From the IMG/VR virus record IMGVR_UViG_3300023184_000124, positions 1 through 62,475 of that record: a DNA stretch of 62,475 bases; one strand, 5' to 3'. Under the pieces are notes generated by a model. That model ran no database searches. It was not told the DNA's origin and was given only the letters and a program-made list of their open reading frames with translations. Positions 9,970 through 58,000 of the stretch are shown here, piece after piece (position 1 is the first letter of the stretch; each line of letters begins with the position of its first letter). The position numbers and the translations under genes were made by a program. Origin of the DNA: a virus.

Positions 9970-9976
9970 TATTTAG
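9970..9976 (-). promoter_or_regulatory. Late-promoter-like motif CTAAATA
   Basis: CTAAATA on the minus strand lies 18 bp before the ATG at 9951 and overlaps the stop codon of the upstream 886-residue gene. It would allow the 426-residue virion protein to be expressed separately. Confidence 0.5.
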
Positions 9977-12633
9977 TATTGAGATTCATTTGGTAAAATA
10001 GTTTTATGTGGAAATAATACATGAAAATTTTTACTATTTAATGGATCTGGTACCGGGGTAGCACTTGGCAATCCTGTCCAAGTAGGAGGATTAGTAGTTT
10101 TATCATAGTTATATGTGGTGCTTTTATCCACAGTAAATCTATCAATATTAAAATTAATTTGATTTAATTTATATGCCCAATTGTCATTTATATTATTTTT
10201 AATAGTAATTGCTTTACCTGGTTTGGTATAACAAATAACCCACGCTTGTGTATATCCTAATGTATTACCATTCGCTTGCTGACTGGTCATCCATAGAGGT
10301 AATAAAGAAGAATCATATTGTTGACCCAAAACTGCTGACACTCTGTTACGCATATTAATTAAACTATTTGGATATAACACTCTAGCCGAACCCGGAGTTA
10401 AACTAGTATAATATTCTTGACCAAATATATTTACATAACTAGTATATATATCATCTACACTAGTATACCAAGAACCCTGAAATAGATTAATAGGAGTTGG
10501 CCAATATATTTCACTGCTAACACTTACCCCGCTAGGATTTATTAAATTATCAATGATTTCACTATATACAACCTCATATATAATAGTACCAGCACTATTT
10601 TTAGCAACAGCAGTTTTTAATTCACCCAATGTTACATTTCTCCAATAATGATTTTGTGTAACTGCGGCAATATATTCATCTAAATCGCTAGAAAATACAC
10701 CATATAAATGCTCATATACAACACTAGTTGCTTTACCAAAATATATATCAGTTGCTCTATATAAATCTATAGTAGGAATCAAGGTAGTATTAGTTAACAA
10801 TGAATTTATTATATTTCTATCTGTAATACTAGGTGTAGCGTTAATATATAATATATCTGTTGGTTGATTATATTGTTGTAAAACAGATATAGTAAATGTT
10901 TTATTTGAATTTAATAATGGATGATCAGGAGAGTATGCTCGTATAGTAACAGTAAAATCAGTAGTTTCGTTTAGTATTAAAAATTGATTAGTAGGTTGAT
11001 CCGCAACATATCCGGTTATTTCTCCATTATATAATAATTCTAAATTAGGAGGAAGTGAACCTGACACAATGTCATAATATAGTTCTACTTGAGCAGTTGC
11101 TAATACATTTAATGTACTAATTGTTCCGTTATAAATTGTTCCCATATTAGCTGGAGTAATCCAAGTAACAATACCATCAAGCCCATTACTTATTTTATAT
11201 GAAAACTCAACATATTCACTTATAAACGATCCTTTTAATACAGCAACTGAAAAATTATATTGGTTAATTCCAGTTGACCCTAAAATTGGAGTACCAGTTA
11301 TCCAACCAGTTGTTGTATTCCCTATCATTCCACTTGGTAATCCTGAATAAGAATATGAAATTACAGAATTATCAAAGTCTTTTCCTATTATCTTAAATGC
11401 AAAATAATTATCACTTTGAGTAGTGCCAATAAAAGTTGAAGTAGCAGACGGGGTAGTTAATGTTCCACTTTCTTTGGGCGGTGTAAAATAATATCCATAA
11501 TATTCATTAGTTGGTAAAATATTAAATGTAGTGGGTCTTGTATTTAAAATAACCGGACTTCTTGAATTTGGTATTTTGCCCGGACCCCCTTGGCTTACTG
11601 GAGTATTTTGATTAATAACGGTAAGTTGATATTCAGCCACAGCAGTGCCTAATGCACTTTCTAATTTTAATGTAAAAGATGATGTTCTTATTGTTGGCTG
11701 ACCTACACTAGTAGCCGGTAAAGTAACTGTCATATACCCAGCAGCGTCTGTAACTAAGTAAGTTGGACCGTTTTGGATAGTAGACACCGTAAATTCAGTA
11801 CTATTAATTATACTTTTAACATAATATGTAGTAGTATTTAGTGAAGTAGCAGTTCCGGTACCGGACCCAACTCCTGTTGCAGTAAATAGTACGCCTATTG
11901 AATTAGCAGGTGCACCGATTAAAGTAAAGTCAGTTGGGGTATTACCAATCGTTGTAATTTCATAACTATTTCCTATTATAAAATAACCTGCAGATACTAC
12001 AGCTGTGGATGATATTGTCCCGAACGTAGTGCCTGAAAAAAGTACAATTCTACCCAAAGCAAATCCAGTTGTACTTAAACAAGTTATAATATTTGTTGAT
12101 GCAGTTGTGAGAGAAGCACTTGTTACTATTAACGGAAATGTTATATTAAGTATTGGTGGGTTTGGATATCCTCTAATAATACCTGATTCATTTATTTCTA
12201 GCCCAGACGGCAATAAGCCTTCTTTTAGGGATATAATTACAGTATTGTTAACATCAGGATTAGAATATTGAATTGGAATTTCAACCCAAATACTATCTTG
12301 TACACTTAATAAAGATCCAGTGGGAGTAGTAAACTTTGGAATTGCAGCGCCTAATACAACCATAGAAAATGTTCTATCTCTTAAATTATTTAAATTATCA
12401 GTAACACGTACAGTAAAAGTGCTAGTTGTTGCTAATGTAACTAAAGTGGGAGTGCCGGTTATTAATCCATCTTGATCTAATGATAAGCCTGGCGGTAGTA
12501 CTCCGCATAATAATGCATATGATATTGATGATGCAGGTGACTGTGCAGATGCTGATAATTGAAAAGTAGCCGGTAACAATGATGGAAATGTTCCCAGAGA
12601 TCCGGCGGGGGTGTTCCAAATAGGCTGTGCCAT
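9973..12633 (-). CDS. Virion protein with putative Ig (He_PIG-like) domains and shared tail modules (886 aa)
   Basis: The N-terminus has Ig-like repeats of the He_PIG type: LPPGLSLDQDGLITGTPT, then LLPSGLEINESGIIRGYP, later GLPSGMIGNTTTGWITGTP and SLPPNLELLYNGEITGY. Such folds are common in phage surface adhesins. Around residues 170-310 a YYI-type module is interrupted by a second module ending [10 protein letters not shown]. Both modules are repeated in the giant protein at 43045-62475. The C-terminal 300 residues are aromatic-rich and lack repeats. The gene is followed in the same direction by the 426-residue virion protein and preceded by an endolysin. A decoration or fibre role is inferred; the Ig fold is known to occur in such proteins. 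Confidence 0.75.
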   Translation of the reverse strand: MAQPIWNTPAGSLGTFPSLLPATFQLSASAQSPASSISYALLCGVLPPGLSLDQDGLITGTPTLVTLATTSTFTVRVTDNLNNLRDRTFSMVVLGAAIPKFTTPTGSLLSVQDSIWVEIPIQYSNPDVNNTVIISLKEGLLPSGLEINESGIIRGYPNPPILNITFPLIVTSASLTTASTNIITCLSTTGFALGRIVLFSGTTFGTISSTAVVSAGYFIIGNSYEITTIGNTPTDFTLIGAPANSIGVLFTATGVGSGTGTATSLNTTTYYVKSIINSTEFTVSTIQNGPTYLVTDAAGYMTVTLPATSVGQPTIRTSSFTLKLESALGTAVAEYQLTVINQNTPVSQGGPGKIPNSRSPVILNTRPTTFNILPTNEYYGYYFTPPKESGTLTTPSATSTFIGTTQSDNYFAFKIIGKDFDNSVISYSYSGLPSGMIGNTTTGWITGTPILGSTGINQYNFSVAVLKGSFISEYVEFSYKISNGLDGIVTWITPANMGTIYNGTISTLNVLATAQVELYYDIVSGSLPPNLELLYNGEITGYVADQPTNQFLILNETTDFTVTIRAYSPDHPLLNSNKTFTISVLQQYNQPTDILYINATPSITDRNIINSLLTNTTLIPTIDLYRATDIYFGKATSVVYEHLYGVFSSDLDEYIAAVTQNHYWRNVTLGELKTAVAKNSAGTIIYEVVYSEIIDNLINPSGVSVSSEIYWPTPINLFQGSWYTSVDDIYTSYVNIFGQEYYTSLTPGSARVLYPNSLINMRNRVSAVLGQQYDSSLLPLWMTSQQANGNTLGYTQAWVICYTKPGKAITIKNNINDNWAYKLNQINFNIDRFTVDKSTTYNYDKTTNPPTWTGLPSATPVPDPLNSKNFHVLFPHKTILPNESQY
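11852..11900 (-). repeat. 49-bp element identical to 51194-51242
   Basis: The minus strand here is identical over 49 bp to plus-strand positions 51194-51242 in the giant gene. Both encode the same part of a GSGTGTA-type module. The flanking module sequence is also very similar. Confidence 0.85.
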
Positions 12634-12634
12634 A

Positions 12635-13255
12635 TTATCTTTGCAGCATATCCAATGCTATCTCATAATGATGTTTTCTATCTTCCAATCCAATGGTCCC
12701 ACCATTAATTCTTTTTGTCAGTGTTACAAAATCACCACTGTCACAATATTGATTTAATTTATTATTATCCCAAAACCAGCCAGCACTTGCCACGGCACCG
12801 TTTGGAGTTTCTAAATATGCAACAGTATCTTCAATTGATAAATCTAATGCTAGGGCAAATTTAGTATAATTATCTCTACCGGTTAATTGAATTAATCCCC
12901 TACCACAAAATCGATATCCGTCACCACTGGCTTCATCTCCGTTTTTCATCCTATTAGCATATACACGATTGGCAATCATTTCGGGTTTGCGTTCATATCT
13001 TTTTGCAGTTGCTTCATCATAAAAGTATTTCTTAAAGGTAGTCATTAATCCTTTGGCACTGTAATTTAAATTTTCTTTTACAAAATTAAATCCTCCGGAC
13101 TCATGTGCGATTTGTGCTAAAAACCCTGCTATTCTATTTGTATTAACAAACATGTCATAGTATTCACCTACAGTATTCAACGGTTCAATATATGTAGTTA
13201 GAATACTATCTTTTGTTTTAGGACAAAGGGTGTGTAATAATTCTATTGTAATCAT
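12635..13255 (-). CDS. Endolysin, glycoside hydrolase family 19 (chitinase-like lysozyme)
   Basis: The 206-residue protein is a single GH19-type catalytic domain that would cleave peptidoglycan glycan strands during lysis. The family signature is clear: AQIAHESGGF with a candidate catalytic Glu at residue 52, then YRFCGRGLIQLTGRDNY, and NGGTIGLEDR near the end. There is no signal peptide or membrane helix, so it needs a holin or another export route; no holin was recognised in this window. It lies within the late virion gene block, 1 bp upstream of the 886-residue structural gene, and is probably transcribed from the late motif at 13551. Confidence 0.9.
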   Translation of the reverse strand: MITIELLHTLCPKTKDSILTTYIEPLNTVGEYYDMFVNTNRIAGFLAQIAHESGGFNFVKENLNYSAKGLMTTFKKYFYDEATAKRYERKPEMIANRVYANRMKNGDEASGDGYRFCGRGLIQLTGRDNYTKFALALDLSIEDTVAYLETPNGAVASAGWFWDNNKLNQYCDSGDFVTLTKRINGGTIGLEDRKHHYEIALDMLQR

Positions 13256-43044: not shown

Positions 43045-46000
43045 ATGGCCACAAGAATTAGAACACTAAATTTTCTTCCGGAAATATTTAAAACTCCTAC
43101 CAATTCTCAATTTTTAAAAGCCACGCTTGATCAAATAGTAGCGCAACCAAATACTAAAAAAATACAAGGGTATGTTGGTGGTGATTTTGGTCCTGGAATT
43201 AATCCAAATGATTATTATGTTGTTGAACCTACAAAAACTCGCACCGACTATCAATTAGACCCGGGTGTGGTTTTTACTAAAGCAAATGATGCCACTGCAA
43301 AAGATTTTATTAGTTACCCAGGCATTATTGATGCTCTTAAGGTAGAGGGCGGATTAACTAATAATAATAATAGATTATTTAATAGTGAGTTCTATTCATG
43401 GGATTCCTTTACTAATTTAGATAAAATAATTAATTTTAATCAATACTATTGGTTACCAAATGGACCTAATCCAGTATTAATATCAAATGCAACAGTTTAT
43501 GCTGCTGCCGAGTATACTGTAACTACTAGTAGTACAACTGCTGGGTATAGTATTTCTACAATTCAAGGACAACTTGGTACAACTAATCCATCACTAACTT
43601 TATTACGAGGAGGTACATATACTTTTGCAGTCAATCAAACTAGTAACTTTTGGATACAAGGTGCGCCCGGCGTTACTGGATATAGTCTTACTCAACCCAA
43701 TGTACAAACTAGAGATGTTTTGGGGGTAACTAATAATGGGGCTGAAACAGGATTAATTACATTTACTGTCCCTAATAAAAATGCACAAAATGAATATAAT
43801 TTTTTAGGTAATAATTTAGTTGATGTTGTTAGTACAATCCCGTTTGAACAAGTTAACGGAGCATTACTATCAGATTTGGTAGCAATAGACGGAATAACTT
43901 CGCTTGAAGGGTTAACGGTAATGTTTTATAATACCGGTATACCTGACGAAATTGGATATGTGTCTAACTTTTTTGATTATACAAATTTTGACCAAAATAC
44001 TAATTTAGTGGCTGCATTAACTATATCAGTAACCAATACAACCACCGGTACCAATTTAATAACATGTAATTCTACTGCAGGACTAACACTAAATGATACT
44101 ATAACATTTACTGGAAATATACCATTTGGTGGATTAATACAATATTCTGCAACGATCCCCAATACAATTTACTATATAAAAACAATTAATAGCTCAACAA
44201 CATTTACTATTTCGCAAACATTAGGCGGTGTGGTTTTTCCTTTAACAACGGCCACCGGAACGTTAATTGGTAATATTAATGAGGGGTTGCTAGAAGAAGG
44301 ATATTATACAACAGTCAATGATAATTTTTATACTATCACATATATTGGGTCATCAAGTGATCCAATTATTAGACTTATCCCTGCAGGACAAATACCCACT
44401 AATGAAAAAATAACTGCGGTATACGGAACTGAATGGATAACTAGAAATTTTTATAAAAATATATACGGATATATAAGTGTATATCCTTATCTAAGCGCAA
44501 TATTAGATAAATTATATTATCAAGACGGCACTTCACAAAATAAAGTGGGAGTAATTAACCTTATTGATAGTAATAACACTTACTCGTTAAATGTTGACGT
44601 TGACATATTAGGTAAACAAAATTTTACTTCTACCGGAGGTGTTGTATTTACCAATGGACTTAAAGTAATATTTCGCGGAGATGTATTTCCAAGTTCGTAT
44701 AGAACAGGACAATATTATGTAGAAGGCGTGGGCACTGCAATTGAATTATTAAAGGTGCAAGATTTAATATCTCCTGAAGCATTTACTTCAGGATCATATA
44801 TTCCATATGATAGTACTGCATATGATATTGGAAATTTTGATTCAGAATTGTATATTCCACTAACACCAGATTATATAACAATTGCTAGAAATTCTATTAA
44901 TAAAAATGCCTGGTCAAGAAGTAATAGATGGTTTCATATTGATGTAATCAATGCAACTGCTACTTATAATAATGACCCTGCGTCAATAACAATATCTGCC
45001 ACACAAGAATATAAGGCTAAACGTCCTATTATAGAATTTTATCCAAATATTAATTTATTTAATTCTGGCACTATAGGTAAGAGTCCTATAGATTTTATAG
45101 ATGATAGAACTACTGACGCTTTCTCATTGGTTGCGGGAAAAGAAAACTATTACCCAGATGTAACTAGTTATTCTACTTATAATACTACACTTAATGGAGT
45201 ATCTAGTGATTTGTCCGGTACCAGAACAGCAAGCAATACAACGGTTAACACTAACTTAATCACATTAAGTTTAGGCAATACTGTTGGATTTCAAATAAAT
45301 GATAAAGTTGTTTTTACTGGTTATCCAAATTTTGGTAATATTTTATCCGGTATAACTTATTATATTTCAACGTTAGTATCTACTCCGTCAGCCTTCATCG
45401 GTTTTATCTCAACGAATACACTTACTGTTAATTCTATTAGTGCAGGAAGTTTAAAACTAGGAACTTATATTTCTGGAGTTGGCATAACCGCAGGAACTTA
45501 TATTACGGCATTTGGATCAGGCTCCGGCGGTACAGGAACCTATACAATTAATAGTACGTTAGTAATTACAACGTCTGAGATGGTTGGAAATACGTATGAA
45601 TCATTTACTATATCTGAAGATCAAAACGGAGATACATTAATATTGTCTACCGCTAGCGGAACATTTGATGTTGTTGTAACTCCGTTGTCTACTACTGCAA
45701 CAGTGCTGACAACTGACATAACCGGCTCAATTGCAGTTGGGCAATATATTACAGATTCTACACAGTTATTGCCTAAAAATAGTATTATTACTGCTATTAG
45801 CGGGACAACTACGCTAACAATAACAATGACATGGAATCAACCAACAATATTTGCATCAACTACGGTTGCTTCAATTATAACAACAGATTTACAAGTAGAT
45901 AACTATGCGTTATTTCCCGGAGCAAGAGTTGTTTTTACAGCAGACACAAATGATAATATAAAAAATAAAATTTATGTATCACAATTTTCACTTGTAGCAG

Positions 46001-49000
46001 GATCAACTACTCCTGTTATAACGTTAACCGAAGCAGAAGATGGATTGGTACTGCCCGGTGAGCAAACCGTTGCCTTCAGAGGATATAACTATCAAGGTAT
46101 GGATTTTTACTTTGACGGAACTAGTTGGATAGAATGTCAACAAAAAATAACAGTAAATCAACCTCCATTATTTGATGTTTATGATAATAATGGAATAAGT
46201 TTTGGAAACACAGAGATATACTCAAGTAGTTCATTTGCAGGATCTAAATTATTTGCATACGGAATAGGTTACGGGATTGATGATATTATATTAAGTTTTC
46301 CACTTAGATATAGTTCAGTAGCCAATGTTGGTGATATAAGTTTTGATGTTTCATTAAATAAAGATACCTTTAATTATGTATCGGGAACTACTCCTATAAC
46401 TCAAAAAATTAATACAGGATATGTTGAAAATACCATTTCGTTTGGCTTAACTAAACGTAATTTAGGGTGGCAAACCGCAATTGCCCCTAGTATTCAATAT
46501 CAACAGTTTCAATTTAATTGGGCGCCGGTAGTAGGGACATTGCCAGTTTTTACGTGTGATATAGCAGTAGTTGATTCTGTTGAAGGTAACTGGCCTGTTA
46601 TTAAAGTGTATGTAGATAATATTTTTCAGGCTGCAGATTCTTACACATATACCACTACTACAACTTCTACTATTATAACTTTAAATTCAACTATTATACA
46701 AAGTATAGTAGAGATATTAATATTAAGTGACCAAGTAAGCACTACAGCATATTATAGTATTCCACTAAATTTAAATAATAATCCATTAAACCAAGATTTA
46801 ACAACGGTAAATGTAGGAGATATTCGTACTCAATATCGTAGCATATATCAAAACAATCCTAATATTATCGGGGAAGTTTTTGGGCCTAATAATTATAGAG
46901 ATTTAGGAAATCTAGTTCCGTACGGTAATGCAATCGTACAAAATAGTGCTGCATTAGTATTGCCTGGCGTGTTTTTAAGAAAACAAAATTATAATTTATT
47001 TAATTCGTTAATGTTTAACAGCAGAAGTTACATTACATTTAAAACTCAATTAATAGATACTGTTAATAATACTGCATTTAATGCCTTACCAGAGCCAGCA
47101 GCATTATTAGATAATGCGTTAGATATATTAACTGCTTCTAAAATAGATAGCGAGCCATTCTTTTGGAGCGACATGATTCCTTCCAAATCAGCATACATTA
47201 GTAATACATATTTATTTGCAAATTCATTAGATATTAGTGTATATCAATTAAGTAGGGTATATAATTTTAGTACAGCAAATTATAATGGTGTATTAGTATA
47301 TTTGACTAGAACTACCAATAACACAACAAAAATTACTCAATTAATTAAAGGAGTAGATTATTCTATAAGTGCAGATTCACCATATGTAACCGTTACCTTA
47401 GATTTAATAGCCAATGACATAATAACAATTAATGAATATAATCAAACTTACGGAAGTTATATACCAAACACCCCTACTAAGTTAGGATTATATCCAGCAA
47501 CTATTCCAGGCGTAATACTAGATAGTGCGTACCAAAATCCAACATATTTTATTGTTGGTCACGACGGGTCTTACAATAAATTATATGGTGCATATAATTC
47601 TACAACCAGTACATTAGTTGATTTTAGAGATCAGGTATTATTAGAATATGAAACTCGTGTATATAATAATTTAAAAGTAAGTGCAATTATTCCAATTAAA
47701 GAATATGAAGTATTACCGGGATTTTTTAGAGAAACTGATTATACCAATGATGATATATTACAAATATACTCTGAAACATTTTTAAATTGGGTAGGGCAAA
47801 ATAGAATTAATTATAAAAGACAAATTTATAATACCTATAATCAATCTACTTATAACTATTTTCAAAGTGGAAATAAGATAAACAAAGCTGTAATACAGCA
47901 AGGATATTGGAGAGGAATATTTCAATATTTTTATGACACAACCACGCCGGATAAAACGCCATGGGAAATGTTAGGATATACTAATCAACCTACGTGGTGG
48001 GCTACTAAATATGGTGCAGCACCATATACTAGTGATAACTTCGTATTGTGGAATGATTTAGCAGAAGGAATTGACTGGAATGACGGTAACCCTATTGTAA
48101 TTGCCGCAGCAGTAAGACCTGAATTATTACAAATATTACCGGTCAATAGTGCAGGTGAATTATTATCTGCATTTGATGCTATCGTGGGTAATTACAACAA
48201 TAATTTATTTCAACGTGATTGGAAAGTAGGTGATGATAGTCCAGCCGAACTTAGTTATCGTAGAAGTAGTTCATGGCCATTTGATTTGATGCGTATATTA
48301 GCATTAACTAAACCTGCAGAATTCTTTAATTTGGGAGTTGATTTAGACAATTACAAATTCAATACTGAATTTGGACAATATTTAGTAAATGATAGAAGTC
48401 ATTTGGTTGTAAGTAATATAGAAATATATGGATCAGGTACTGCTAAAACCAGTTATATTAATTGGATTGTAGATTATGCTAAACAAACAGGAGTAGATGC
48501 CACCCAAGATCTATTAGATGTATTAAGAGATTTGGATGTTAGGTTAGTATACCGATTAGCCGGGTTCAGTGATAAAGATTTATTAAAATTTTATGTAGAA
48601 AAGGGCACACCTAATAACACTAATGCTTCTTTATTAATACCTGATGAGAGTTATTCAGTATTGTTGTATGATAATCAACCGTTTGCTAAAGTAATATATA
48701 CCGGCGTTATTATTCAAATAACAACGAACGGATATGCAGTTTATGGTAATTCACAAACACAAGCGTTCTTTAAAACATTTAAACCAATTAATAATGGCAT
48801 TTATGATAATATAGAAGTAGAAACTCTTACTGTTAGGGTTGCTAGTAAATATTCTCCTGTTGAAATTATTATACCGTATGGTACTGAATTTTATACAGTT
48901 CAAGACGTAGCACAATTTTTAATAAGTTATAGCAAATATTTGGAAAGTGAAGGATTAGTTTTTGCTGAAATTGAAAATGGAATAGAAATAAACTGGAGAC

Positions 49001-52000
49001 AAATGACCGAAGAGTTTATGTATTGGGTTCAGTTGGGTTGGGAAGTAGGAAGTATAGTTAATGTAAATCCGGCGGCTACCTATTTAGTTATTTCTCGTGA
49101 CAGTTCAATTGTACAACCTTTAACTTTCCATCAACAAAATTTTGTATTAAATCAAAATTTATATCCAATTCAATCTAGAGATTTGAGCATAGTTCGTGAA
49201 GATACGACCTTTAGCATAAAGACATTAAATGCAGGCGACACTATATCCTACGGACAATTTAATATATATAATTTTGAACATGGCATTGTGTTTGATAATA
49301 TTACGTTATTTAATGATACTATCTATAATTTAATAACTGGGCTACGTCAAGTAAGAATAATATTAAATGGTACTAAAACTGCTGAGTGGAACGGCACGAT
49401 TGATGCTCAAGGATTTATTCTTAATCAAGATAATATACTTGAGTGGAATAAAGAAGTAAAATACACAACCGGTTCTATTATAAAATATAAAAATAGATAT
49501 TGGATAGCAATAAAAATCAGTCAAGCAAAAGAAATATTTGATGAACAAGACTGGAAACTAACAGATTATAACGAAATACAAAAGGGATTATTGCCTAACT
49601 CAAGCACACGTTCATATGAAAGTACCTTATATTACAACTCTAATTATGCTAACTTAGAACAAGATTCTGATTTATTAAGTTTTTCTTTAATAGGGTATCG
49701 TCCTAGAGATTACTTATCCGTTGCGGATTTATCTGATATAACTCAGATTAATGTTTATCAAAATTTAATTAAAGAAAAGGGAACACTAAATGCAGTAAGT
49801 GCCTTTAAGGGTGCAACATTATTGCAAGGCGGAATTAAATATGATGTTTATGAAAATTGGGCTATAAAATCAGGTGAATTTGGCGGAGTACTAAATGATA
49901 ATTTTGTTCAATTTAAATTAAATCAAACTTACTTAACAGGTAATCCCTCTATAGTAGGTCTTACTAATGGTATAGCAAATGAAGGAGTTCAGCAAGAAAT
50001 TCCTATATATTCATTATTTAATTATGGCAGAGTTATTAATGATGTTAATATATTACCTACTATAAATGCAGGCACACAATCAACTGTATTCCCTGACGCC
50101 GGATATGTAAATTATAATGATATTAAAATGTCATCATATTTCTATTTTAATTTACCTCAGGCTGCTAATCAATATGGTAAAGTAATTCCGTTATCTAATT
50201 TTTATGTAAGAGATTATACTTGGCTGGCTAATTATTTAGGCACATGGCAGGTATTTACCCCTGCTTCATTGGGTCAGGTTATATATGCTAAAAATAATTT
50301 AAATGGAACTGTTACAATAACATTTAACCAAACTCATAATTTAGAACAATATCAACCGCTAGCAATAGTTAATTTCAATGATGGTATCAATGGATATTAT
50401 ATCGTAAGTTTAGTAGTAGATCCCAATCGTGTTATTATTAATTTAACATTAAATCCAAGTATTCTTACAGTTACTGGATTTGGAATTGGATTTAAATTTC
50501 AATCACAACGAGTGGCCACCCCGTCTGAAATAATTAATTTACCTTTATTAGACGCTGAATTTATTAAAAATAAAGTGTGGGTAGATACTAATGAAGACGG
50601 TAACTGGGCTGTATTACGAAAAAATATTAATTATCAATATGAATCTGAAATTCTAAAAGCAACAAGTAATACGTTTGGTAGTGCTGTGGCATATACTGCT
50701 GATATTGGTTATTTAATAGGCGATGCCACAGCCGGCAAAGTATATAGATATGTATATAATGAAGTAGATTTTATATATGAAATAGTACAAACTATTACTA
50801 ATGCTTCTTCATTTGGTACAACTATAGTGCATGTTGGAGATCTTATAGTAATATCAGAGCCAACTACTCCTAAGGTCTATATATATCAATTACAACATAC
50901 TGCTGTAATTAATTCTATTACCCCGTATCAAAATACAATAGCATTACCCGGAGATGCTATTGCAATATCAGGCGATCAAAATTGGATATATATTTCTGAT
51001 ACCTTAAATAATAGTGTATCTGCTTATCGTAAATCTCAAAATACAGGAAAATATGAAATTTCATATGTTATAGATGGTAATTCACTTGGATTAACTTCAG
51101 TAACAACTGCCGGTAGTTTTACAATAGGAAATAGTTATGAAATTAAAACGGTTGGTTCAACTGACTTTACTTTAATTGGTGCAGCATCTAATACAATAGG
51201 CGTACTATTTACTGCAACAGGAGTTGGGTCCGGTACCGGAACCGCGTATGCCGGAGATAATTTTGGATATTCTGTTGCAACTGATTACTATGGAGATACT
51301 ATTGTTATAGGTACCCCAAACAAAGATTATAGTGCAACAGTTGATAATTGGGGATATACATACATATTTGATAGAGTAATGCAAAATATAGAAGTGCAAT
51401 ATACTTCTGCATCCCCATCGATACAAACTTATCAATTAGCATGGACTCCTGTCATCCTTACGACAAATATTATTTCTACTACGGCTACTGACACGATTAC
51501 TTGCGCTAGTACAACTGGATTTACTGTACTTACTCCAGCAATGTTTTCTAATACAATGATAGTTGATAGCGGAATATCTGCTGACATAGTGTATTATATT
51601 CGGTCAGTGCCTACCGGTAGCACATTTACTATTGCTGAAAACAAATATATTACTAGCGTTGCGTCTACTATTGCTACCGATAATTTAATTGTAGTTGATA
51701 GTACAACTAATTTTGTTGTAAACAGTCCAATTATTTTTGAAGGTAATGCTGATGTAACTAATATAGTATCCGGTACAACATACTTTATTAAAACAATAAC
51801 TACTGCAGGATTAGCACCGGCTATAACTATATCTGCAACATCAGGTGGCGGAACATTTACTATTGCATCATCAACTAATTCACTATCGTTAACAGCAGTT
51901 ACACTAAGTAGCCCGGTAACAATAAGTACAAAAACTAGAGCAACCATTACTGCCGGGAATTTTTTAATAGGTAGAACCTATCAAATTATAACAGTTGGGT

Positions 52001-55000
52001 CAACTAACTTTATGTTAATTGGTGCAGCATCTAACACAGTCGGCGTAATATTCACAGCAACTAAAGTTGGTTCTGGCAACGGCACTGCATATGCAGTTAT
52101 GACAATTAATGTTCAAACTGAACCTTTATTTATTAAAGTAAACGGCACTTTAATTACTGACAAAAATTATGCAGTTGTGGGAAATAATTTAATAGTTAAT
52201 CAAACTATTAGAGCTGGCGATTTGGTTAATATAAGTGGGCCGTTATTTACGCTAGTACAAACACTTACTACTGAAACTACTCCTAATGTGGGAGTACATT
52301 TTGGACAAAGCGTTGCTGTTAACACATATGCATCAGAACTATTAATTGGTGCTCCATTTGAGTTGAGTACACAGCGAGATGAAGAGGGAGCAGTATTTAG
52401 ATTTACAAACGGTGGTAGTAACTATGGCGTAATTATAGGAACATCAACTTGTACAGTTACTACCGCACGTAATATTTTATTAAATGGATATTTAATTCCG
52501 ATTGTGGCAGGTAATGCGATAGCAGTTGCTAACACAATTAACAATGCTAACGTAACTAATATTCAAGCATCTGCGGTTAATGGCATGCTTATTATTCAGT
52601 TAATAAATGTTGATTTAGCAACAGCAAACGATAAATTAATATTATCTGTTGTTGATTCCGCTACGTTAAGTGAATTAGGAATTAATTTATACACACAAAC
52701 TCAATTTATTAAATGTCCGCATTTATACGGTCCAACTCAATTTGGAAATGTAGTAAAAGTTAACGCTGCTGGGTCTTTTGTTGCAAGTGCGCCGACTGGC
52801 ACCCGATATTTAGCAACTACTTTTGATTTTACTGATGATGAATTCTTAGATAATGACACATTGTTTGATAATAATACTACGCAGTGGGTAGACCCGTTTT
52901 ATAATGCCGGTGCAGTATACATGTTTGATTATTTACCGGTGTACAATGCAAGTTTGCTTAATCCGGGCAAATATATCTATGCTCAAAGTACTAATGCATT
53001 AAATCAAAGTTACGGTGACCAACCCATGTACGGTCACGCTATTGATTTTACAAACGAATCTTTAATTATAGGCACACCAAACTTTAGAGTGGGATATGAT
53101 AACGGTCAAGTTATTACATATTTAAATACTAGTGGGGTACCTGATTGGAGCACATATAGACAATCAGCACCGGTTGTTGACATAAGCAAAATAGCAAATA
53201 TACAATTGTTTAGTGCTGAAACAAATGAAACATTAGACAATTTAGATTATATTGATCCACTTCAAGGAAAAATATTAGGTGCGGCAAGACAAAATATTGA
53301 TATAATTTCTAATAATGATCCTGCAGGATATAACTCTACAACAGCCCCTCGTGCATTAGTATGGGGGACAGGTAAGGTTGGCCAAATTTGGCTTAACACT
53401 AGTAATATGCGATATGTAAATTATCATCAAGATGATATTTCTTATAATAGTCAATATTGGGGTACATTATTTCCAGGCAGTCAAGTGGCAGTATATACTT
53501 GGGTGTTAAGTAATGTCATCCCTGATTTATATTTAGGCCCAGGCACGCCTTTTGATAACACTAAATATGCTACAAACTATACATTAAATGCTACGGGACT
53601 TGTAGTCCCTGTGTATTATTTCTGGGCAAGCAACACTAATATAGTATCTACCGCAATAGGAAAAACGTTAGCAGACTCTACTATTGCCGGATATATTAAT
53701 TTTCCAAAGAATTCTGGGATAAGTTATTTTGCCCCACTATTACCAAATGTGTTTGGATTGTATAATGCTACGCAATCTATAAATGCAAATGATACTGTAT
53801 TAAATATAGGATATTCAACTGGAACAAATGATGATCCTGGACACAACCAATACGCATTAGTACGTGCTAATTATGCCGATGATTTTTTACCAGGCTTCCC
53901 TAAATTAAACACCACAGATTTACCTACTAATTTATATGATAAGTTACTAGATAGTATGTGCGGAGTGGATGAATCGGGGCAAATTGTTCCTAATCCGTTT
54001 TTACCAAAAGCAGTACAAACTGGTATATTAGTACGACCATCGCAAAGTTTCTTTTTTAATAGATTTGGTGCATTAAAAAATTATTTAATGTATGCTAATA
54101 CTGTGTTAGCACAATTTCCAATTACAGAAATTAGAAGAAGTTTATTTTTAACTGCAACCGGACCATTTTATAATACCTCTGATTATTGGATTTATATTAA
54201 TTGGTGGGCTCCAGGCTATAGTGATGCTACAAAATCTGCAACAACCGTTAATATATATGCTGATTTGGCAGCGTTAGAGGTGGTAGCCGGCACTATTGCT
54301 ACAGTAAAACTAAACGGGAACGGTAATTCAGAAACATATATATTAACTTCTTTGGGTAGTTGGACACGCATAGGACTTAATAATGGAACGATTGAATTTA
54401 GTAGCACATTGTGGGATTATTCAATAGATCGATTTGGATTTGGTGATAATTTTTATGACACCACTGACTTTGATTTATACCCATCTGAAGAAACTAGATT
54501 TATTGTTAGAGCATTAAATGAACAACTTTATACAAATGAATTATTAATATTTCGTAATAAAAGTTTGATATTGTTATTTGAATATATTCAAAGTGAGACC
54601 ATTGAATCTCAAAATTATATTCCATGGTTAAATAAAACTTCATTAATTGATGTATCACACACGATACGAGAGTTGGTGCCTATTGATGAATATAAGGCAG
54701 ATAATCAAGAATTTTTAGCAGGTTATATAAATGAAGTAAAACCATACCATGTTGTAATTAAAGAATTTATATTTAAATACACCGGGGTTGATGTATATGA
54801 AGGTGATATAACAGATTTTGATTTACCAGCTGAATATGACATTGAACAAGAACATTATATTAGCCCGCAATTAGTATATGGTTACCCCGGCACTATATAT
54901 CAGTATTCTTATACAGACCCTATATGGACTACTTCTTCATATAATCAATGGTTTACTAACATGGGTGTAAGCATTACCGGAGTATTAGATTATCAAATTA

Positions 55001-58000
55001 CAACCTTAACAAGTTATATATCATTAAATTCTGTTGCATTTTCAGTTGCAAATGCATTTGGATTGCCTACTACCGGTGTATTATTACTGGGTGATGAAAA
55101 AATAGAATATTCAACCGTTGATAGAAATTTAAGTGTGGTCGCAGGACTAACTAGAGGCATAGGTGGCACTACAGTATCTACACATATACCTGGCGAATTA
55201 ATTTATATAGATTTGCCAGCAGTATTATTACTTGACAGCGGAAGATCCTATACTGAACCCCCTAAAGTTATTGCATATATTGACACTACAATTTATCCAG
55301 AGCCAATGGTTTTAGCAGAGTTGGTTGCAGTTATGAATTTAGATAAAGTACTGTCAATTACGGTTGTTAATCCAGGCAAAGGGTATGCAGTATTGCCAAC
55401 TATTATTATAGATTCAGCAGTAATTATCCCGTTTGAAAGTAGTGCAGTTAGTCTTGTTGGCAATACAATTGATGTGTATGCTCCTTTATTAGAAACAGGA
55501 GATCTTATTCAATATAAGGTGTCGGTAGGAAATACTGCAATTGGAGGATTAGTAAACAATCAATGGTACTATGTGAATGTGCTAGAAACTGTGCCAACTG
55601 TTATTGTCGCATTGTATTCTAATTATGGAGATGCTATTAATGGTAATATATATAACAGAATACCCTTTTACAGTGTAGGTTCTGCTACTGGCGGCTCATT
55701 AAATCTAGGGGCAAGAGCATCTTGTGTTTCAACTGCATCTCCAATTCGTCAAAATAATATTACACTTAAGTTTGACCGCACTACCTATAATTCACAAGTT
55801 ACTGATTGGGAAAGTAATGCATTTTATGCATCTCCGTTTGCTGGACTATATTATAATAGTCAAACAGTATCAAGCTCATCTATTACATTAGAAAATACAC
55901 AGCCCAATATTCAATCAATTTTAGCAAGCGGACAGGGAATATCTTTTGAAATAGTTAATGTAACTAATGATCAAATTATTACGTGGTCATCATTTGCTAG
56001 AATTGTTGAAAGAACAATAGCGGCAACTGATATAATAAGATTAACTTTATTAGACAATGGCGCAGGCAATAGTAATGCATCAGGCTCTACTCTTGGCTTC
56101 TATGTAAGTATGCCGATTAAATTTGTAGGGGCAATGATAGGAGGATTGGTAGACGGTACAACATATTATGTACATTCTATTATAAATGATACTGATTTTA
56201 AAATTTCTACCATAGCCGGCGGTGAATTTACTGGTTCAATTTCAACCACTACACTTACTGTAACTACTGTTATTTCCGGTACAATAACCGTGGGAACTGT
56301 TATAACTGGGTTAGGAATAACAATAGGAACAACAATTACTGCATTAGGTACGGGCACTGGCGGTATAGGAACATATACAATTAATAATAGTCAAACTGTT
56401 AGTTCAATTCAAATTAATGGGACCCCTCCGGTATTTGATTTATCCGGATATATAATTCCTGTGGGTGCAGCACCATTAAATTGCTATACTGCTGACGCAA
56501 GTAATACCGCAATATTAACGGTAACGTATCCTGGCATTTCTACAGTTACAGCAACTACTGCAACAACTAATACATTGACTATTCCGTTAAATTTAACAGG
56601 TAGTGGCGGAACTCAGGGTTTCTATATAAATTTACCAATATATTTTACAGGAACAATGATTGGTGGTATAGATGATAATCAAACTTACTATGTAACCACT
56701 GTAGTTGACAGTCAAAGATTTACAATGTCGTTAAATCAAAACCCATTAACTTTGCCTATAACCGGAGCAAATGCAAGTACAGATAAAATTACGTGCGTAA
56801 CCACAGAGTTGTTATCAGATATATTAACAGTTAATCAACCTATCATATTTAATTCAATGATTATATCTGCTGGGTCTTTTGTAATAGGACAAGAATATAC
56901 TATTGTAACAGTTGGAACAACTAATTGGGACACCGTGGCAGGTATTACTAAAACATATATAGTAGGTGATATCTTTATATGTGCTAATTCTGGAGCAATA
57001 TCTGCCGGTAATTATATATTAGGAGAAACTTATATAATTGTTACATTGGGAACAACAGACTTTACTCTAATTGGAGCAGCATCTTCTGCTGTGGTCACTG
57101 GATCAATATCAGGCACAACGCTTAATATTGCCGGTGTTACTTCAGGCATATTAACAATAGGCACATATATTACAGGGACCGGCGTAACGGCAGGAACATA
57201 TATTACTGCATTTGGAACTGGAGTTGGATATTCAGGAACATATACAATTAATAATAGTCAAACAGTGTCCCCGGCAATTACAATTACCGGGCAACCTCTA
57301 GAGGGAACTTCATTTATTGCATCTGGATTAGGTTCGGGTACTGGAACTGCAGGTGCAACCGGTACAGTCGCCGGCACATCTTTTGGCGGTATCATATCGG
57401 GTACAACATATTATATAAGCACGATACAAAATATATCATCTACAATTACTATATCATCTCAGCCTAATAGTGGTGATTTTAATATTACATCTAATGTAAC
57501 CGGTTCTGCATTATTAACTAGTCAAACTGATACTGTTGCACTTACTACTGATGTTGGTAATATGACAATTAATATTTCGTTACCTGTGAGTCCGGGTCAA
57601 GTTAATGGACAACTATTTACTTTGTATGATACATCACAGCAATTTCCAAATATTAGTTCCGGATTAACCGGAGAATTAATACAACGAACTGTTTCTGATA
57701 CTATACCTGCTTCAGTAACTGCAGGCGATTTTATTATAGGGCAAAGTTATACCATTGTTACTGTTGGCACTACTAACTTTGTGTCTATTGGTGCTTCAGC
57801 AAGTACAATTGGAGTGATCTTTACTGCAACTGGTGCCGGATCTGGTACAGGAACTGCTAATTTACCAAATACCGCAGTTGCAGCCGGGTCGTTTGTAATA
57901 GGGCAAACATATGAAATTGCGTACATAGGAAATACAAACTTTATAGTAATAGGTGCTACAGCGCAAACAATTGGATTAGTATTTACTGCTACTGGCATTG

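Follow-up and report, generated by a model that had tools for sequence, protein, structure and literature searches.

A 171-bp in-frame insert nests one protein module within another in a probable virion gene: empty sites in related phage contigs

Ig-like domains are small beta domains spread among phage structural proteins, and Fraser, Davidson and colleagues have reportedly described such domains, He_PIG and others, as additions to phage virion proteins. Rickettsia palindromic elements are short stretches of DNA that have entered protein genes of unrelated kinds in frame. Phage proteins also display domain mosaicism, in which fragments are common to otherwise unrelated proteins, tail proteins prominent among them, and domains have been gained or lost recently between closely related phage genomes (Smug et al. 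2023, PMC10684548). The BACON tandem repeats of crAss-like phages are tail-associated modules described as evolving by horizontal domain transfer and duplication (PMC6949934), and the ShiLan domain is an in-frame homing insert of a phage methylase that lacks stops and intein/intron signals, is predicted to loop out and hides an out-of-frame HNH endonuclease (PMC11855218).

Here we describe an insert in the 62,475-nucleotide stretch of IMG/VR virus record IMGVR_UViG_3300023184_000124 (positions 1 to 62,475; hereafter the window), where one module of an 886-residue protein (B) interrupts another (A). As in Ig-like domain spread, the protein that carries the nest is of the He_PIG Ig-like kind, but B matches no Ig family and is inserted within a domain loop rather than appended. 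Unlike the Rickettsia palindromic elements, B has no significant palindrome or fold. The locus resembles domain mosaicism (PMC10684548) in that B occurs in 80 non-redundant contexts and was apparently gained between close relatives; it differs from the mosaicism described there in that a 48-residue module outside Pfam, NCBIfam and PHROGs lies inside another such module and has a base-resolved empty site. B is a different domain from BACON, for which nesting goes unmentioned in the abstract (PMC6949934), and the insert is in frame and stop-free like ShiLan but contains no ORF of the HNH kind hidden there (PMC11855218). A literature search on nested phage modules found only general mosaicism papers. 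Phage domain shuffling is already known; the present locus adds an uncatalogued module, shows it nested and supplies a dated insertion along with the empty allele.

The nested insert and its empty site

The host gene (positions 9973 to 12633, minus strand) is an open reading frame of 886 codons with He_PIG Ig-like matches over three stretches (Pfam PF05345), and its neighbours encode a gp23-type major capsid protein, a head protease, a portal protein and baseplate wedge proteins of a T4-like phage. Based on the Ig-like domains and the position near the capsid, protease and portal genes, the product is probably a structural protein of the virion. No close homologue of the gene was found in cultured phages, and a scan of bacterial genome assemblies with the whole protein returned 0 matches. 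The ORF adjoining it on the same strand (12635 to 13255) has a chitinase class I (GH19) match too weak to reach the Pfam cut-off and possibly encodes a lysozyme.

In the order of translation, the protein reads TNIITCLSTTGFALG (from 12096), LFSGTTFGTISS, TAVV-SAGYFIIG... and then TTTYYVKSIINSTEFTVS (from 11835). The left half of module A, the YYI module, ends in TNIITCLSTTGFALGRIVLFSGTTFGTISS and occupies 12007 to 12108 (residues 176-209), and the right half, beginning with TTTYYVKSIINSTEFTVS, occupies 11701 to 11835 (residues 267-311); both lie on the minus strand, as does the 171-bp insert (57 codons, 11836 to 12006) that separates them after FGTISS, that is, after A residue 34. Within the insert lies the 48-residue core of module B (SAGYFIIGNSYEITT...GSGTGTA; 11848 to 11994, minus strand), whose signature is AGxFxxGxxYxIxTxGxTxFTxIGA...FTATGxGSGTGTA. 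The insert is a multiple of three without a stop, and two bases at the junction (AC) can be assigned to either side. Eight places in the window match its B core, one of them being the insert; the best of the others is a giant-gene copy at 51109-51246 (83% at the amino acid level, E 3e-18), so the nested match is not a chance one. A first-pass annotation made from the letters alone had noted B between two parts of A in this gene; that arrangement is confirmed and the peptides quoted for the protein are all correct, while the interval given (11850-12000) is nearly exactly the inserted module, both halves of A lying outside it.

With the gene region downstream of the nest as query, 72 related contigs were gathered, of which 48, comprising 34 distinct proteins, have the gene complete at its 5' end and cover the site. 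The insert is missing and A is uninterrupted in 48/48 of these contigs (34/34 distinct proteins, down to ~51% identity), two of which are ~97% identical to the window at the DNA level, so that the uninterrupted form which the first-pass annotation proposed to look for in other phages does exist, and its reading of an independent event in a second gene is supported by these empty-site relatives. The two closest contigs, L009 and L010, share ~98% protein identity downstream and 97-98% DNA identity with the window, and both carry the exact empty site, CGGGACAATATCATCC being followed directly by ACTACCACATATTATG, where the window has CGGGACAATATCATCC, the 171 bp and then ACTACTACATATTATG. Both are collinear with the window, for 5-6 kb on one flank and for 3.9 kb on the opposite one, and the insert is the one large indel in that region. 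Across the first ~730 residues, it is likewise the only insertion of at least 12 residues outside the N-terminal ends. A base-by-base comparison of filled and empty junctions revealed no target duplication. Module gain or loss between close relatives is thus found between the window and L009 and L010, and this is the only insertion that we resolved to the base. The parsimonious reading of the alignment is that the insert was gained recently in the window lineage, after its split from L009 and L010.

Nesting in the giant gene and in other phages

A giant open gene on the plus strand (43045 to 62475; 6477 codons) runs off the window and contains other A, B and C modules. Four of its B copies, all on the plus strand, lie at 51103-51246 (copy 1, which at 87% over 145 nt is nearer to the insert at the DNA level than any other relative found), 51946-52089 (copy 2), 57715-57858 (copy 3) and 57877-58020 (copy 4, in tandem with copy 3 at a 162-bp period). 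Two nests occur on the same strand. In nest 1 (56770 to 57486), A halves at 56770-56859 and 57373-57486 surround 513 bp with a variant of B and, after it, a B copy that is in turn interrupted by module C, and A resumes after about residue 25, between FNSM and GTSFGGI. The B copy that C splits lies at 57000-57340, and C also occurs near 45535 and 56368. In nest 2 (58201 to 58536), A halves at 58201-58323 and 58495-58536 surround a 171-bp B variant of the NWNTIAG type that interrupts A near residue 44. At the three window junctions, those of the 886-residue gene and of nests 1 and 2, the bases are unlike one another. The suggestion that the nesting matches that of the giant protein stands insofar as B sits inside A twice there, but the insertion points differ, at A residue 34 as against ~25 and ~44. 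A sister of the giant gene (L179/L180), 97.6% identical and collinear over 20.5 kb, carries the same nests, which makes them older than the insertion in the 886-residue gene.

Across the window and other phages, B was found inside A in at least seven separately placed cases. Nests were checked by excising B in silico and scoring the A profile across the junction, and the profile scored across it in the window genes, in L142, in L115 (twice) and in L088/L091. One orthologous giant-gene A, located before NVDRLWVTVNGYRVP, is uninterrupted in most readable relatives; in L142 it holds B at residue 34, whereas in L115, L221/L224, L227 and L228 B lies at residues 44-46, and these latter insertions may share one event. 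L226 and L229 seem to lack the entire A at the orthologous giant-gene site before DNVDRLWVTINGYRVP, where the other readable relatives have it, so that A itself may be gained or lost. B was also observed interrupted by B in L165, L166 and L167, compared with L164, at the turn between the YTIT and TDFT segments.

A structural model of the empty form (mean pLDDT 82) places the insertion site, at residues 120/121 of the modelled segment, between strands 107-112 and 123-129. Residues 27-36 and 44-47 of A are inter-strand loops in this model, and all mapped insertion points are located in them or at the end of the neighbouring strand. If insertions were placed uniformly, the probability of finding all seven points in loops would be about 0.2 to the seventh power, a rough estimate with the loops chosen partly post hoc. 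Since all seven mapped points lie at loops, which is unlikely under uniform placement, the model points to loop tolerance as accounting for the clustering of insertions in A. When the filled form was modelled, the underlying alignment had set B rows against the second half of A in rows without B (pLDDT ~31-40 downstream), and because of this misplacement the B part of that model was not used. All hits of a PDB fold search with the empty form were of a generic Ig/cadherin type and had low TM-scores, and distant kinship between the A and B hairpins was not supported (hhalign probability 2.8%).

Distribution of module B and selection on it

Module B was detected in at least 491 stretches of viral contigs, in 16 loci of bacterial genome assemblies and in three cultured-phage records; none was found in plasmids. 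Its consensus has no family match in Pfam, NCBIfam or PHROGs, no match to a known Ig family and no convincing relative among PDB chains. Among the proteins that host it are a tailspike of the pectate-lyase type, a fibre with an S74 chaperone, a sheath stabiliser of the T4 gp15 type and, in a Polaromonas assembly, PilY1. In the latter case (L182), B-type modules occur at about residue 210 of a 1358-residue PilY1-like ORF, which means that B extends beyond the virion genes of phages unless this contig has a mixed origin. A phage protein family of ~540 residues with a KWCEADTDV... flank carries B at one conserved place (L087, L095, L098, L104, L105, L106, L122 and others), and a related-looking cultured record, MW202481, is annotated as a phage stabilization protein.

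All of 205 B copies in 124 loci lie in open frames, the shortest being a contig-edge ORF of 92 codons. Among 80 non-redundant contexts, differences at codon positions 1, 2 and 3 amount to 0.28, 0.23 and 0.67, respectively; with third positions near saturation and positions 1 and 2 conserved, B is under purifying selection at the protein level. The flanks of the 80 non-redundant copies have little consensus, and on the left flank the strongest positions sit in the two codons immediately preceding the profile core, where they are probably part of the module itself. Taken as a protein, B is a promiscuous and probably beta-rich virion building block of ~48 residues, and we infer that it would be exposed on the virion surface with a role in host contact or virion stability.

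Origin of the insert

Of the 32 window-specific substitutions in the 886-residue gene, nine fall in the 121 bp that follow the insert (11715 to 11835, minus strand), a concentration reached in 0 of 5000 permutations (P = 0.0024 for clustering anywhere). We read this tract as having been imported as DNA together with the insert, although the cluster could also be a strain mosaic in the assembly or the product of error-prone repair. Against the 97.6% identical sister, the most divergent 144 bp in 19.4 kb of the giant gene coincide exactly with B copy 3, their limits being those of the B core, and four giant-gene B cores together carry 46 substitutions where 14 were expected (P = 0.0004). The B copies thus appear to be the most exchanged stretches of that gene. 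In the comparison with L179, copy 3 (window 57726-57840) looks to have been swapped for a different B allele, with 24 substitutions in 144 bp. Similarity between the insert and copy 3 extends over nearly the full length, including the 3' linker, at 69%, as if the insert were one unit taken from a tandem B array. Direct copying from giant-gene copy 1 was rejected, as the two are too diverged (87% nucleotide identity) and resemble each other no further than the core. The 13% divergence of the insert from copy 1, compared with 2-3% between the host genes, points to a donor in another genome, and we accordingly place the putative donor outside the window genome. Exact 20-26-mers from the insert, the junction and the adjacent tract, searched against viral contigs, recovered neither a donor nor a second filled allele.

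Several other accounts of the locus can be weighed against these data. Deletion is mechanistically simple, and B might have been ancestral at the site and lost by the relatives, but this needs the same exact-length loss in all 34 distinct proteins, down to ~51% identity, with a normal A loop left each time, and is extremely unlikely. We also consider it very unlikely that the insert is an assembly chimera, for which one might cite its presence in a single metagenomic contig and the short stretch beside it that is more diverged than the remainder; it copies no other B in the window (best 87%), the frame is kept exactly and two probes had no exact match among viral contigs. The occurrence of B inside A in both genes might finally suggest that a single copying event carried the entire A-B nest over from the giant gene, or in the reverse direction, an outcome that the first-pass annotation had named as contradicting its own reading. 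B was not copied together with A, since A stands without B at the orthologous place in 48 contigs; moreover, A is split at different residues in the three nests and the DNA similarity of the smaller gene to B copy 1 ends at the B core. Such a single copying almost certainly did not happen, being effectively ruled out by the 34 distinct uninterrupted orthologues.

The manner of movement and the choice of target invite further alternatives. B as a dedicated mobile DNA element (MITE-like, homing or self-splicing), inserted in frame via an enzyme acting in trans, would suit a clean and precise insertion, hundreds of copies in unrelated genes and repeated nesting, including B within B (L165-L167 versus L164). 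Yet the insert ends carry no terminal inverted or direct repeats and no palindrome, target duplication and flank consensus are lacking (little consensus in 80 copies), the fold of the insert is not unusual (z -1.65) and Rfam gave no match. A hidden ORF, endonuclease or splicing function was sought in the 171 bp, where the other frames are closed or, at 57 codons, hold nothing recognisable. The copies, all in open frames, bear the codon-position pattern of a selected protein, and a dedicated element is quite improbable. A sequence-specific hotspot in A-module DNA draws on the at least seven separately placed nests, on the two A loops that were hit repeatedly and on the one orthologous giant-gene A hit both at residue 34 (L142) and at 44-46 (L115, L221, L227, L228), but only 4 of 71 non-redundant B copies lie in A against 1.8 expected from its 2.6% coverage (P = 0.11), in a test that comprises only loci fetched because of their B content. 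The bases differ at each junction and loop tolerance covers the clustering, so that a hotspot of this kind seems unlikely. Where the first-pass annotation had offered a preferred target or a shared mechanism, recurrence and a shared mechanism are supported, while a preferred DNA target is not, given the three differing insertion points, the little flank consensus of the 80 copies and the insignificant excess of B in A.

The explanation we favour, and regard as likely, is that a B unit was added to the 886-residue gene by recombination and kept through loop tolerance. One B unit with short linkers (171 bp) would have recombined into the gene in the lineage of this phage, the incoming DNA probably stemming from another phage and bringing a short diverged flank. 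The insert would have been kept because it is in frame, contains no stop and lies in a loop between two A strands, so that the Ig-like host domain could still fold. On this sequence evidence, recombination rather than transposition would move B. A broader proposal, in which A, B and C are recursive modules of environmental tailed phages that invade each other's surface loops (B in A, B in B, C in B) and grow virion genes through a dedicated recombination route favouring them, is speculative and we hold it to be improbable.

The locus pairs a recent insertion, resolved to the base, with the empty allele, and the module concerned, though missing from every family library searched, is abundant among uncultivated phages. 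Proteins with nested modules of this kind will defeat alignments and domain callers. The case shows how virion genes can reach great length as modules nest inside other modules, and because close strains differ by a single in-frame insert this route of growth is testable.
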